Assembly (NCBI RefSeq): GCF_009389715.1
Contig: NW_024067667.1
Span: forward strand, 3,184,501-3,248,500
DNA: 64,000 nucleotides
Source: Phoenix dactylifera
Lineage: Eukaryota > Streptophyta > Magnoliopsida > Arecales > Arecaceae
Direction: 5' to 3'
Each line of letters starts with the position of its first letter. The first letter of the stretch is position 1. Both the position numbers and the translations under genes were made by a program. Positions 34,501 through 40,120 of this stretch are shown here, one piece after another. The notes beneath the pieces were generated by a model that worked only from the letters and a program-made list of their open reading frames with translations, searched no databases and had not been told where the DNA came from.

Positions 34501-37014
34501 TATAGATATGGTCATTGGTATCATCAATACAGCTCATAACATTCACTACAGGAAAAAAGGAAAAAGCCGACGCTTAAATGCCGACGCTAGGGAGAAGCGT
34601 TGGTAAGTTTTGCTCCCGCGCCAAATTTGGCCGACGCTTTTAATGAGCGTCGGCAATTTGAAATAGTGGACGATGCTTAAAAGCATTGTTGTAGGCCACC
34701 AAGTAAACGACGCTTTGAAGCATCGTTTTTGTCACCTAAGACGACGCTTATAAGCATCGTTGAAGGTTAAGCCTAAAATGACGCTTATAAGCGTCGGCGA
34801 AGGTGAAGCCCCCTCCAAACCCAGCAGCCGACCCCGAGCTCGCATATTTGTCCTAGCTACTCCCCGAGCCCCCTCATTCTCCTCTTCGGTGTTGCCCTGG
34901 CCCTCGTCTTCCTCCTCTCCGGTGCCACCTTAGCCCCCATCTTCCTCCTCTCCGGCGCGGCGTCCGACTCCTACATCCTTTCCTCCTCCCTCCTCTCCGG
35001 TGTCGACCGACCGACCCAAACCCCTTCTGCCTGAGGTATATTTCTCCTCCTCCCTCCTCTCCCTCTTTCTCGCTTGTTCTCCTCCTCCTCTTCTTCGTGT
35101 GTTCATTGCTTCGATCGAACTTCACAATAGCCCTCCTCTCCGGAGACCGGCATCGACCGACCGGCCCAAAACAATGATTGATCGAGGCCGCCTCTGCCCA
35201 AGGTAATGCAGTATCTTTCCTTTATTCTTCTGTGCTTAGTCATATACTCTAGGTTTTAAAGTATCTTTCCTTTATTCTTCTGTGCAGATATATCAATTGT
35301 TTGACATCTTTATTTTGTTATGAGACATTCTTATTTTTCTTTCTTTTTTTTTGGAGAGGATTTGTCTTCCATTCGGAACATCTAGCATAGATTTCAAATT
35401 TTTAACAAAATTTCCCAGGTGTTGAACATGCTATTATGCCCTTAATAAGATCTATTTCCTTGATTACCTGTACTTTTAGCTATCTTTGTAAATACTGAAT
35501 AGATGAGTTTTGCTATTAAGTGAGGTCTGACCCTTGCTTTCTAACAAGCTTAGACCCCCTTACACCTTTATCTGATCAGTTAAATGAATTCTGCATGGGT
35601 TTTCCTTTTCTTTTCCTAATAAGTTTTACCTTAAAAGTTACATGCAAGGAATAACTGAAGGGATCAAGAAGTCTCCTAATTTGCAGACTGATATACAAAA
35701 TATCTTTGTGCCAGGTAACTTAAAGTTTTGATAGATCTAGTTCTTATTATCTAAATATGACCCATACAGCAGCCAGCACATGGATTTAAATGGATGTGTA
35801 GGAGACTAGCTGCATATGCAGTTCAATTGGTCAACTGGAAAATTCCATTCATGTCAGATTTATTTGATTATTTCAAGTAAAGAAGAAGCAAGCACGGAAC
35901 AGTAAAAGATATTCAATAGACTCTTCAAGGTTCAGTAGTGCATTATCTGTGGTCTCACCCAGCCACAATTTACTGAGCAAAAAATTGGATGATCATAAAT
36001 GTATATGCTTCAGGAAGCCAAGATCATCTAGCTATTGCAGGGAGCCACCACCTAGATCTTTTAATTTCCACTGAAGGGTGTATGCCCATTTGATCCATGT
36101 AAGGCACTACGATGGATTTGAATGACAATATAGATCTGCATTTGGTTGAAGTTTTATTTATAAAGCTCATCCATAGTTTTCCCATAACACACACACACAC
36201 GCACACACAGAGAGAGAGAATTGTAGCTCCAAGAATTGCAGCTCTTATGGTAATGGATGGGGTTCTTAATGCTCCAAGAATTGTAGATATTCTCGGTTTG
36301 AAACTTAAGTTCCTGACTATGCTGCCAAAAATGTGCTGGTCAATGCAATGTAATTTTGACTATGCTGCCAAAAATTCCTGAGTCCAAATTATTTCACTCT
36401 TGGCTTTGGGGAATACTTTGAAGTCTGAATGAGTTTTGTGATTGGAGGGAGACAAGTGCAACTCCCAGATTTCATCTAGTTCAATCTGTGGGTGGTGATT
36501 AAAGATTAAAAAATAACTTAACAGCTCCTTACACTACAGGAGAACTTACCTTTCCCGACGCTTTTTAGGGCCTTTAGCGACGCTTATAAGCGTCGGCTAA
36601 AGCTTCCGCGACGCAAACCAAAGCGCCGCAGAAGCGTCGGCGATACCGGAGTGGAAAAACTTTTTGCCGACGCTAGATTAAAGCGTCGGCAAAAATTGGG
36701 ATTTGCCGACGCTTTTTTCCGACGCTATAAAGCGTCGGAAAAAACCGTCGTGGCACGCGGGTGCCTAGGCCGACGGTTTTTACCGACGCTTTAAAGCGTC
36801 GGGAAATGTAATTATTTTAAAAAAAATTAAAAATATCAAACTCTATAAATTTACATAAATCATAAAACACACATTATACAATATGAACCAAACATTCAAA
36901 TTACATTGATATTGACAAACATTTAGATCATTCGAAATATAAATTTACATAAAAAGTTATGAATTACAATGTACTTTTACATATCAAACTTCATAAAAAA
37001 CAATCTACAAAGTA

Positions 37015-38746
37015 TCAGGGACGAGATTCAACTCCATCATCATCATCTATGCGAGCATTTGAAGGATCAGGAATCTACAAAAAAAAAAGAAAAGAGAAAC
37101 CTTAGATATTTGTAAAAATGGGATACATTAACTTATACATCATAATTGATAATATGTAAATTTTTATTCAGCCATAGCTCCATTTAATTTATCAGATATG
37201 CCGAAAATTATCATCCAAACAAAGTGAGACAAGAACTGTGATGGACATGGAAAAAATGTCGCAATAAATACTTAAAGAACAGAGAAAAAACATTACCAAA
37301 ACACCTGCAGGAGGATCACGATATCCCGTGAGTAGGGCAAAAACATAGTTTTGGCCATTGTGTCGTGCCTGGAGGAATATGCAGGAGAACATTAGTAAAA
37401 GAACCAGACAGACATTGATGCAAATCTGAGTCCAAATTTTCAGTGATACTACCTTGGTGATAATGCTTAAGTCTGGAGGATATGCTCCTCCATTGGCAAA
37501 TCTTGCTGCTTGTTCATTTGGATATGGCTGAGGGAAACGATCGCTTAATTTACCTTTACTAGGACGTGTGAACATTTCACCTTCACCATTTGGCCCATCA
37601 ACCACCTCAACCTCAGCTGCCATAGCCTTTGTCTCCACTTCAGTGTATGCTACACCAACAAGATCTCGATATGAAATCAAAGACATTGAATGGCAAGAAG
37701 CACAAACTTGTTGGTAAACTTGGTGACTGCGCCGAATTCTGCTCAAGTTCATTATAATTAGTATTTCAATCATTGTACATCCACATTAAAACTAGTATAC
37801 AGCTTTGCTTATTTCGTTGTGCAGATGAACAAAATGTTAGTTATCTAAAACGGACAACCTTTTTTTGCAGCCAAGCTACTAAGCTACTCAGGTTAGCCAT
37901 TAACTGATAACAAGAGATCTCTTCAAAGTTGATGCAGCAGATCTCAAAGCATAAATTCATTCAAATTCATGTAATATATAATTAATATCAGTATAGCGAA
38001 TATAAGAATCTTATAGAAATGAGAAAAAAATTAGTAAATATAGAGATGGTACTCCACTTACGATGCGTGGTCATAGGAACTAAGAATGCCTTTGTGAGGC
38101 CAAGGATAGATTGGACATGGTAGGCCATGCTCAGCTTCATCAGCAGATGCCAAAGTAGCCAGGCTCTTAGTGATTTCACACCAGAAACACCTGCTCCAAG
38201 GAATGCCAATGCTCTTAGTGATTTCACACCAGCAGATCCAACACTTTCTTGATCTTGCTTACACACATAAGATGGAAGCAAAAACAGAGCCTGCATGTGA
38301 ATGATAGATAGTTAAATGCACAAAGAATGGAAACAATAAAATTAATGCAACTTGACTAGAAACCACCACCAAAACTAGAAAATGGAACTCCCTTCAACCA
38401 GAGGAATATAATAACTGGAAAGGCCATCAGTAATTTTTGTTCTTCGCCTACTGCTCAGAGAACAAGTTTCATCTATTTGCGTAATGAAGATTAAGTACCT
38501 GGGTGGAGGAAGATCTCTCTTATGGCTGTGCTGGGAACTCCCTCATCTTCTTGCTCCAGGCGAATCTTTTTCAGAGCTATCATCTCATTGGTCGGACGGT
38601 CTCGAGCCTTGTACACCACTCTGTAGGTCCCTTCCCCAATCTTCTCCACCTTCTCGTACTGCGACCAAAATCCTCACATTATCACTCAAAACATCACATT
38701 CTACTACCAGAAGAAGGGAAAGCACATTGCTTCTAACCTGGTCCAT
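37015..38746 (-). pseudogene. Chimeric captured gene: CDKA exons 1-2 + cytochrome c1 exons + CACTA terminal exon
   Basis: Minus-strand exons in order are as follows. CDKA: 38738-38746 (MDQ) and 38499-38658 ([20 protein letters not shown] to [11 protein letters not shown]). Cytochrome c1: 38062-38290 (ALFLLPSYVCKQDQ to GILSSYDHAS), 37453-37738 ([20 protein letters not shown], with heme motif CASCH, to [13 protein letters not shown]) and 37297-37368 ([20 protein letters not shown]). CACTA: 37015-37074 (DPSNARIDDDDGVESRP, stop). Every junction has GT/AG and the cytochrome junctions keep native phase. The kinase piece ends after IREI, where the family continues into the C-helix, and its glycine loop has GEGTYR instead of GEGTYG. 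Joining CDKA to cytochrome c1 shifts the frame and gives an early stop, and a 22-bp direct repeat breaks the first cytochrome exon. The CDKA/CYC1 identities are firm; transcription is inference. Confidence 0.85.
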
Positions 38747-39345
38747 TAGATCCCAACCAAACTCTACTGGGGCACGAACACAAGAAATCCAAAACCTAGC
38801 ATTCCATAAAGGAGAATAAACGAAGAATGTGAGTTGAGAGCAAACTCAACCAGACAAGAAACAAATCTAGACCGCGCATGCCACATTCATCAAAAACCAT
38901 ATCGATCAAGATCATAGAAATCGATGGCATTTAACCAGAAACCAATTCCGATCGGCGAAGACAAAGCATTCGGAACAAAGCCCTAAAGTCCGATCAAATC
39001 CATCAACAATCATGTAATCCAGCGGATCACTTTCCATAAGCATTCGTATAGAAGGGGAAAATCAGAAACAACAAAAAAGGAACAAGATCGGAAACGAGGT
39101 GTAGAGAGCTAAGTACCGAGCTACGACGGAGGATCGGATCCCCGAGACAGCGGAGGAGCTGCCGGAATCGAACGGAGTCGGGCGTCGAAACCGAGGAGAC
39201 GAGGGTTACTCTACTTTGTGGGCTTCGAAAGAAAAGAGAGTATGGGGGCTAGGAAGAGAGCACGCGCGAGAGAGACACGGAGATGCCTGAATGCCTCTCC
39301 GCCCCTCTCCCTCCCTATCTCTCTACCCTTTTTCTTCTCCTCCCT
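38747..39345 (-). promoter_or_regulatory. CDKA: Captured CDKA 5' region (leader, 5' intron, probable promoter)
   Basis: Upstream of the captured MDQ exon the minus strand carries leader-like sequence and a possible 5'UTR donor (GTAGCTCG|GTACTTAG near 39112-39121). Beyond it is a CT/GA-rich tract at 39230-39330 of the kind common near plant transcription starts. The captured piece therefore probably includes native leader and possibly promoter sequence in the same direction as the chimeric exons. No TATA box was assigned. Confidence 0.45.
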
Positions 39346-39644
39346 GCGTAGCTGGTGGATGGCTCTTCCTGCAGCCATTTTAGTCAACTCCTCAAAGAGA
39401 TTTGGTTTTCCTGTAGTGTTAGCACTTCTTCAGTCTAATAAATTTTGCCACAGATCAAACTAGGGTTGTAAATATTTTGCTTCCGAAAATAAAATTACTT
39501 GACCTTGATGCAATGCATGACAAAATTTAAGATTTAATGAAATGAACCTGATATCAAGGGAGACTTGAGAAAACAATTTTTTGGGTGATGATAGCCATTT
39601 CTCTTTAGAGTAACTCCTTCAATTTCTTCTTCTTTTTCCATTAG

Positions 39645-40120
39645 GTAATAGAAGTTGGCTTGGCCCAGAACGTTATGGTCGCGTGAGGGGTTACGGTGTC
39701 GGAGTTACCCCCACTCAGCTGTCTGCAGTGAGCCGATATACCCAAGATGCCAGACAAGATACTAGCACTGCAGAAGTTTGTAGTTTGAAGACAGAGATGG
39801 CACAGATAAAGCAGTCATATGAGACAAAGATAGAGGAGATGAGGCAGAGTCATATGACTGATATGGCGAAGTTGAAGCAGAGCCAAGAGTTGAAGATACA
39901 ATCTTTGCAGGATCAGCTTGACCATATTTCATCTTTTTTGCAGAGATTTGCTCCTCCGGTACATAACTAAATCTATTTGAATATTTTATGTAATTATAAT
40001 GTATTCTTGTATGAGCGTGATGACTTTTGTATTTTTAGTTTCTAAAATATTTTTTTTTCTTTCTTGTAGGTTGATGATACTTCATCTACTCGTAGAGATG
40101 ATGATGTCGTCGACCCTTGA
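39645..40120 (+). pseudogene. Terminal exons of the outer CACTA transposase-associated gene
   Basis: Exon 39645-39958 encodes NRSWLGPERYGRVRGYGVGV, then TPTQLSAVSRYTQ, and a coiled-coil-like segment rich in K, E and Q (LKTEMAQIKQSYETKIEEMR). This is typical of the C-terminal part of plant En/Spm TNP-like (Transposase_24) proteins. The donor CCG|GTACAT and the acceptor TTGTAG at 40069 lead into exon 40070-40120 (VDDTSSTRRDDDVVDP, stop). Homologues of this last exon occur at 37015-37074 and 57822-57872 on the minus strand. Upstream exons are missing or displaced by the nested element. Confidence 0.75.

Follow-up and report, generated by a model that had tools for sequence, protein, structure and literature searches.

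A date palm CACTA transposon family carrying a CDKA segment nested within a captured cytochrome c1 gene

Analysis of a 64,000-nucleotide stretch of the genome of the date palm, Phoenix dactylifera (contig NW_024067667.1, positions 3,184,501 to 3,248,500; here called the window), revealed a non-autonomous CACTA transposon of 2,887 bp at window positions 36532-39418. This element carries pieces of two host genes, encoding the cell-cycle kinase CDKA and cytochrome c1 (CYC1). It is very probably a Pack-CACTA element that gained host sequence stepwise and was then amplified. How plant DNA transposons capture genes is still debated, and here the order of the captures can be read directly in one genome, because the donor genes, two related elements without CDKA, six elements with CDKA, and empty insertion sites coexist in it.

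Both flanks of the element were joined without it into a query of 530 bases containing one TTA, which was compared with the genome assembly (773 Mb, 2,391 contigs; contigs are denoted C and loci L, and the window is part of contig C20). Two empty paralogous sites, C141:368970-369482 (98%, query 1-513) and C150:294714-295124 (95%, query 69-489), ran straight through the joint. Both read ...CTCCTTA/GCACTTC..., exact at the joint, with one mismatch 17 bases further on. These sites show that the element is a true insertion with exact borders. The terminal repeats at 36532-36540 (CACTACAGG) and 39410-39418 (CCTGTAGTG) match, so that the CACTA ends and the target site duplication (TSD) TTA, both claimed in an earlier note on this DNA, were borne out. 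Subterminal repeats in both orientations are a feature of CACTA elements, and the window copy has them at just one of its ends; about 160 bp of them are missing beside the CCTGTAGTG end, a loss private to this copy with GAAA at its joint. All open reading frames (ORFs) of at least 80 amino acids in the element belong to CYC1, to the CDKA part in another frame or in antisense, or to the subterminal repeats. The element therefore lacks a transposase of its own, as is typical of Pack-CACTA elements.

The captured genes were identified by protein comparison. The CDKA exon matched Pfam Pkinase (8.2e-9) and CDK1/CDK2 chains in the Protein Data Bank, and the CYC1 exons matched Pfam Cytochrom_C1 (4e-45) and plant cytochrome c1 chains. 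CDKA coding exons with their leader had already been recognized in the earlier note; the captured sequence extends to residue 52, beyond the PSTAIRE helix. Three CYC1 exons had also been reported there, and exons 2 to 4 with the CASCH motif are indeed present, but the exon 1 remnant had been missed and exon 2 is frame shifted in the window copy. As that note had stated, both gene pieces lie in one orientation (minus strand) with introns retained. The CYC1 exon 1 remnant lies beyond CDKA, on the other side from exons 2 to 4, which places CDKA inside CYC1. The order at the joints is CYC1 exon 1 ...CACCAGCT, then CDKA from leader to exon 2 ...GAGATCT, then CYC1 TCCTCCACCCAGGTACTT. At the CDKA insertion 59 bp of CYC1 are missing, including the probable native splice donor TCT/GTAAGC. 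We take GTAAGC to be the native donor, judging from the length of plant CYC1 N termini, and the CYC1 bases after the joint would then belong to intron 1.

A whole-genome search with the element returned at least 84 matches. CDKA and CYC1 occurred together at six loci: the window, C7 (L009), C2 at 13.508 Mb (L010; here C2a), C14 (L011), C131 (L012), and C361 (L014). The nesting in CYC1 order was found in all six copies. CACTA-type ends were present on both sides at six of six loci, so that the search returned no CDKA/CYC1 arrangement without such ends, which the earlier note had named as an observation that would argue against capture. The flanking triplets were TTA (window), TTG (C7), ACA (C14), AGA (C131), and TGC (C361), identical on both sides in these five, the exception being C2a with ATC/ATG. 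The variant left end CACTACAAAA occurred at three of the six loci; in C2a, C14, and C361 the left end differed (CACTACAAAAG or CACTACAAAAA) as far as approximately element position 301. These three copies carry the same cargo behind a different left terminus, which indicates that element ends were exchanged within the family while the cargo was kept. The variant terminus is joined near the same place in each (L010:1756, L014:2881, and L011 reverse strand 2253). Beyond the common part, subterminal repeats spanned 171 to 176 bp in C7, C131, and C361 and 98 bp in C14; C2a had 492 bp, insert included. The window, C7, and C131 copies grouped together in trees of CDKA (support, 93) and of CYC1 (support, 87; computed without C361, C4, and the second C131 copy), and little else was resolved.

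Two further elements, C168 (L013; ATC/ATC) and C4 (L018/L019; CAA/CAA), carry CYC1 without CDKA, and their 3-bp duplications are identical on both sides in two of two cases. C168 carries CYC1 exons 1 to 4, and C4 retains only the CYC1 parts at element positions 1769-1981 and 2819-2868. Both retain about 0.3 kb of CYC1 upstream sequence and exon 1, with the 59 bp that are replaced by CDKA elsewhere. Next to CYC1, both also contain parts of another gene, "X" (MAGDRRALPVRCLFFFW...), for which Pfam gave no match. A likely donor of gene X is located at C3:4928770-4929321 (96%). The gene X pieces at L018:1531-2142, L013:2060-2808, and L025:199-687 match over 20 places, of which 14 have the second part only (query 6-220), a larger captured-gene lineage.

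The donor genes of the other two segments were located as well. The CDKA donor segment is C2:13782793-13783621, within a gene at C2:13.7756-13.7836 Mb (L016 and L029) in which residues 1 to 265 were found; the last exon was not found within the stretch examined. The CYC1 donor is C18:846272-847723 (L015), where the coding exons follow in order through to the protein's end. A CDKA paralogue is present on C5 and a CYC1 paralogue at C17:10.47 Mb; CYC1 also occurs at C18:3.76 and 3.78 Mb and at C17:13.74 Mb, the last with a stop. Because the donors persist elsewhere, the sequences were copied, not moved. The possibility that CDKA and CYC1 are simply adjacent genes was rejected: the donors lie on different contigs (C2:13.78 Mb and C18:0.85 Mb), which upholds the claim of capture in the earlier note.

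Comparison with the donors gave the order of the captures. The CDKA donor differed from the six copies by 0.6 to 1.8%, and the copies differed from each other by 1.3 to 3.0%. For CYC1, the donor differed from the copies by 2.7 to 3.7% and the copies from each other by 1.3 to 2.2%, leaving out C361 (5.0 to 6.7%), whose alignment is faulty near its deletion, and C4, which has just 206 bases and differs from the donor by 2.4%. Summed over six copies, noncoding differences from the donor were 58/4000 for CDKA and 149/4250 for CYC1, and exon differences were 10/911 and 87/3396, respectively; the CYC1 sums take in the first C131 copy, C14, C168, C2a, C7, and the window, leave out C361, C4, and the partial second C131 copy, and have exon columns that are off by a few bases at exon ends. 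The larger number of noncoding differences indicates that CYC1 was captured before CDKA. The host paralogues differed at 3/152 exon and 87/464 noncoding positions for CDKA and at 33/565 and 143/698 for CYC1. The exon-to-noncoding ratio was 0.76 (CDKA) and 0.73 (CYC1) in the elements, versus 0.11 and 0.29 in the host paralogues. Judged by sequence divergence, both captures are placed long after the split of the host paralogues.

In the proposed history, an element holding gene X would have taken up a 1.74-kb stretch of CYC1. A break in CYC1 exon 1 within this element would then have been repaired by copying about 0.83 kb of the CDKA locus into it in place of the 59 bp, and gene X and the CYC1 promoter would have been lost alongside this step. 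Mobilized in trans by a CACTA transposase, the resulting element would have spread to six or more places. Short shared bases were read by eye at four joints: TTT between CYC1 and the tail, CTC between the terminus and the CYC1 leader, GCT between CYC1 and CDKA, and CT between CDKA and CYC1. The resulting 3, 3, 3, and 2 bases, counted without the X/CYC1 joint, give a sum that is reached in 0.275% of 20,000 random-joint draws, or in 1.0% when only the three clear joints are counted and the outer CYC1/CDKA joint is left out.

Several observations weigh against stepwise capture followed by amplification of unconstrained copies. The outer CYC1/CDKA joint contains an imperfect zone of 8 to 12 nucleotides (nt), which makes the GCT uncertain and could be filler. 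No autonomous, transposase-bearing partner was found among the loci examined. The ratio of nonsynonymous to synonymous differences of CYC1 from the donor was about 1:1 per copy (10:8, 6:8, 8:8, 3:8, 7:7, and 9:10, leaving out C361 with 37:15), below the 2.4:1 expected for random change, which taken alone would suggest some constraint. Changes common to all six CYC1 copies were 2 nonsynonymous and 6 synonymous, 4 of these donor-side, and the shared past of the copies may have been constrained. The CDKA ratio (6:4 over six copies) comprises too few changes to judge. In favor of little constraint after the spread, changes private to one of the six CYC1 copies were 25 nonsynonymous, 3 stops, and 6 synonymous, against the 2.4:1 of random change. 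This split between private and common changes points to constraint on the shared past and the donor, with none seen after the spread.

The alternatives bear on how the segments were captured and on whether any copy is functional. An origin of the arrangement by assembly error, or by a host gene duplication that has terminal repeats around it by chance, has next to no probability; the window does lie on an unplaced contig (C20, if contigs 1 to 18 are linkage groups), but the two empty sites and the six loci with different 3-bp duplications refute this explanation. It is very unlikely that CDKA was captured by the published Pack-CACTA route, in which elements land on both sides of a host segment, the two neighboring insertions are joined, and the whole is excised as one hybrid; two papers report it for Arabidopsis Pack-CACTA and other Pack-TYPE elements (PMC8903248, PMC13317346). 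In favor of this route, the C2a copy is about 0.27 Mb from the CDKA donor, and the route could also explain CYC1, which lies between two halves of a CACTA element. It does not account for CDKA, which is bordered not by element ends but by two pieces of CYC1 exon 1 in their original order, with just 59 bp missing. We infer that the CDKA step is better explained by break repair with filler DNA than by the tandem-element model, and in this respect it departs from the capture route described in those papers.

A functional product, either a truncated CDKA whose PSTAIRE helix competes for cyclins or small RNAs acting on the CDKA or CYC1 donors, is quite unlikely. The CDKA frame from ATG to PSTAIRE is intact in five of six copies (window, C7, C2a, C361, and C14). 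From this ATG the window copy reads 52 CDKA residues to PSTAIREI; with CAG/GTACTT as the donor, predicted splicing gives FLHPGSVFASILCV-stop (66 residues, stop 14 past the joint), and reading through gives FLHPGT-stop (58 residues, stop 6 past the joint). The window copy would yield a CDKA N-lobe stub of one or the other length, ending soon after PSTAIRE, and the C7 and C2a frames past the joint resemble it. Exact 24-mers of the window element are found in the donor stretches of CDKA (564/2,864) and CYC1 (577/2,864), introns included, and interference by CDC2 pieces has been suggested for the soybean CACTA element Tgm-Express1 (PMC1947982). Against a function, C131 has a frameshift and a stop in CDKA, a secondary deletion affects the joint of C14, whose frame ends after ISEQ, 3 residues past it, the window copy reads GEGTYR for GEGTYG, and the private CYC1 changes look unconstrained. 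Moreover, only about 0.22 kb was captured upstream of the leader splice site, which was itself placed by eye, so the promoter may be missing. It is likewise very doubtful that C168, not the window copy, encodes CYC1 residues 1 to approximately 211 with the targeting sequence, spliced in phase to a 19-residue tail. C168, the only copy in which the full CYC1 frame was read, has the CYC1 upstream sequence, an ATG, exons 1 to 4 free of stops, and a phase-0 junction with the element's last exon, giving 230 predicted residues. However, the splicing is a prediction, a phase match occurs one time in three by chance, the private changes of C168 are 6 nonsynonymous and 1 synonymous, and C4, the other CDKA-free element, keeps only fragments of CYC1. 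A functional chimeric kinase-cytochrome protein was rejected for the CDKA-bearing copies in which the joint was read; the frame shifts there and a stop follows soon after. Stepwise capture and amplification remains the preferred history, and the window element is, judging from its frames and from the private changes, probably a passenger without protein function; silencing of the element is also probable.

Like rice Pack-MULEs, the palm elements carry host gene pieces within non-autonomous elements; rice Pack-MULEs have Mutator-type ends and longer TSDs, whereas the palm element has CACTA ends and a 3-bp TSD. It resembles the Pack-CACTA elements of Arabidopsis, rice, and maize, as described in two papers, in being non-autonomous and in its host coding DNA, terminal repeats, TSD, several copies, and sometimes several source loci (PMC8903248, PMC13317346). 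Tgm-Express1 is reported to contain pieces of CDC2, fructose-6-phosphate 2-kinase/bisphosphatase, malate dehydrogenase, cysteine synthase, and an unknown gene and to produce chimeric transcripts with premature stops, driven by the F3H promoter (PMC1947982). The palm element is similarly a CACTA element with intron and exon pieces of several host genes, a CDK kinase among them. A kinase together with a metabolic gene in a CACTA element is thus not new, and the combination presented as novel in the earlier note is so only in part, since Tgm-Express1 already pairs CDC2 with metabolic-enzyme fragments. Among the matches listed, no title or start of an abstract concerned CDKA with CYC1 in a transposon or a date palm Pack-CACTA, most subscription journals being outside the scope of the search. 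What is new is the legible order of capture and the nesting of CDKA in an earlier captured gene. Unlike Tgm-Express1, which is described as five genes in one studied insertion, the palm family has located donors, CDKA nested in CYC1, and surviving CDKA-free elements. For gene annotation, false CDKA and CYC1 genes may be called at the element loci.

The features of the window element are listed in Table 1.

Table 1. Features of the CACTA element and its target site in the window
Feature	Position	Strand	Remark
TSD TTA, left	36529-36531	.	single TTA in both empty paralogous sites
Terminal inverted repeat CACTACAGG	36532-36540	+	3' end of the element, if its direction is given by the TNPA-like tail
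Subterminal repeats, CCGACGCTT / AAGCGTCGG units, both orientations	36541-36811	.	repeat families D1-D4, inverted pairs
Short terminal exon IPDPSNARIDDDDGVESRP-stop with polypyrimidine tract and AG acceptor	37015-37074	-	alignment of 10 family ends; phase-0 reading
Captured CYC1 segment: exons 2-4 with introns 2 and 3 between them, plus parts of introns 1 and 4	37161-38512	-	donor C18:846k (L015)
CYC1 exon 4	37297-37368	-	24 residues
CYC1 exon 3 with CASCH heme-binding motif	37453-37738	-	exon borders by comparison
CYC1 exon 2, frame shifted by duplicated stretch in window copy	38062-38290	-	repeat family D6
Predicted fusion exon: CDKA exon 2 (...PSTAIREI) plus 12-13 nt of CYC1 exon 1/intron 1	38499-38658	-	possible donor CACCCAG/GTACTT
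Captured CDKA: leader with its intron (by eye), MDQ exon, next intron, and exon 2 truncated after PSTAIRE	38512-39349	-	inside CYC1 exon 1
CDKA start exon ATGGACCAG (MDQ), then GT	38738-38746	-	
CYC1 5' untranslated region and exon 1 remnant (ATGGCTGCAGGAAGAGCCATCCACCAGCT), 50 bp, far side of CDKA	39350-39399	-	100% to L015 2773-2822
Remaining terminal sequence with inverted repeat CCTGTAGTG	39400-39418	-	about 160 bp of subterminal repeats missing
TSD TTA, right	39419-39421	.	single TTA in both empty paralogous sites

The frame shift in CYC1 exon 2 of the window copy results from duplication of a 22-bp stretch, with a net gain of 8 bp (229 versus 221 nt), and exon 3 has a 6-bp in-frame insertion that is also present in C7 and C131. 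The terminal exon IPDPSNARIDDDDGVESRP-stop occurs in family members without CYC1 as well, and its 5' half is replaced in C4. It is probably the last exon of a TNPA-like gene of the element; by eye it resembles a TNPA-like C terminus, and Pfam gave no match above the cutoff for the related TNPA-like frames tried.

The TNPA-like tail marks one end of the elements, and gene X, CYC1, and CDKA all read inward from the other. A related CACTA element at L028:3053-6664 (CACTACAAAAG...CTATAGTG, flanked on either side by AAC) is nested next to another end of the family and contains the first exon of a heat shock factor (HSF) gene (Pfam, 9.5e-20). One end of this element resembles the left end of the window element, and the HSF exon reads inward from the opposite one. 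The shared orientation of the four genes, a sample determined by which loci were examined, is no proof of bias. It is the basis for a speculative and unlikely reading of the family as a promoter-swapping machine, in which the front end of the element is replaced by host gene starts that face inward from the same side, to form units with a host start and an element stop; under this reading, the CDKA-bearing elements would give rise to a PSTAIRE stub or to small RNAs affecting the host cell cycle.

Further observations concern individual copies and the surroundings of the window element. C361 lacks the start of CYC1 exon 2. In C131 a part of CYC1 is present in two copies, separated by about 1.1 kb of other DNA (L012:3841-4955); this DNA contains the reading RGPTQAKDVWKLPPSEKIIIRCNELGQPINRAGSLLSSFLGS, without a Pfam match, which resembles the N terminus of TNPA-type CACTA proteins. 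In C2a, about 400 bp with a tRNA-like box (GATTCGAAC) are inserted near the 3' subterminal repeats (L010:4801-5230), perhaps a short interspersed nuclear element. The region C139:249.5-262.9 kb was considered as an autonomous partner and rejected, as it contains a long terminal repeat retrotransposon. Next to the window element, an ORF at 39614-39970 ends in a coiled coil (LQDQLDHISSFLQRFAP), for which Pfam gave only a sub-threshold FBF1 match. By eye we take it to resemble the C terminus of a TNPA-type protein, and the window element may sit in an older CACTA-like repeat.

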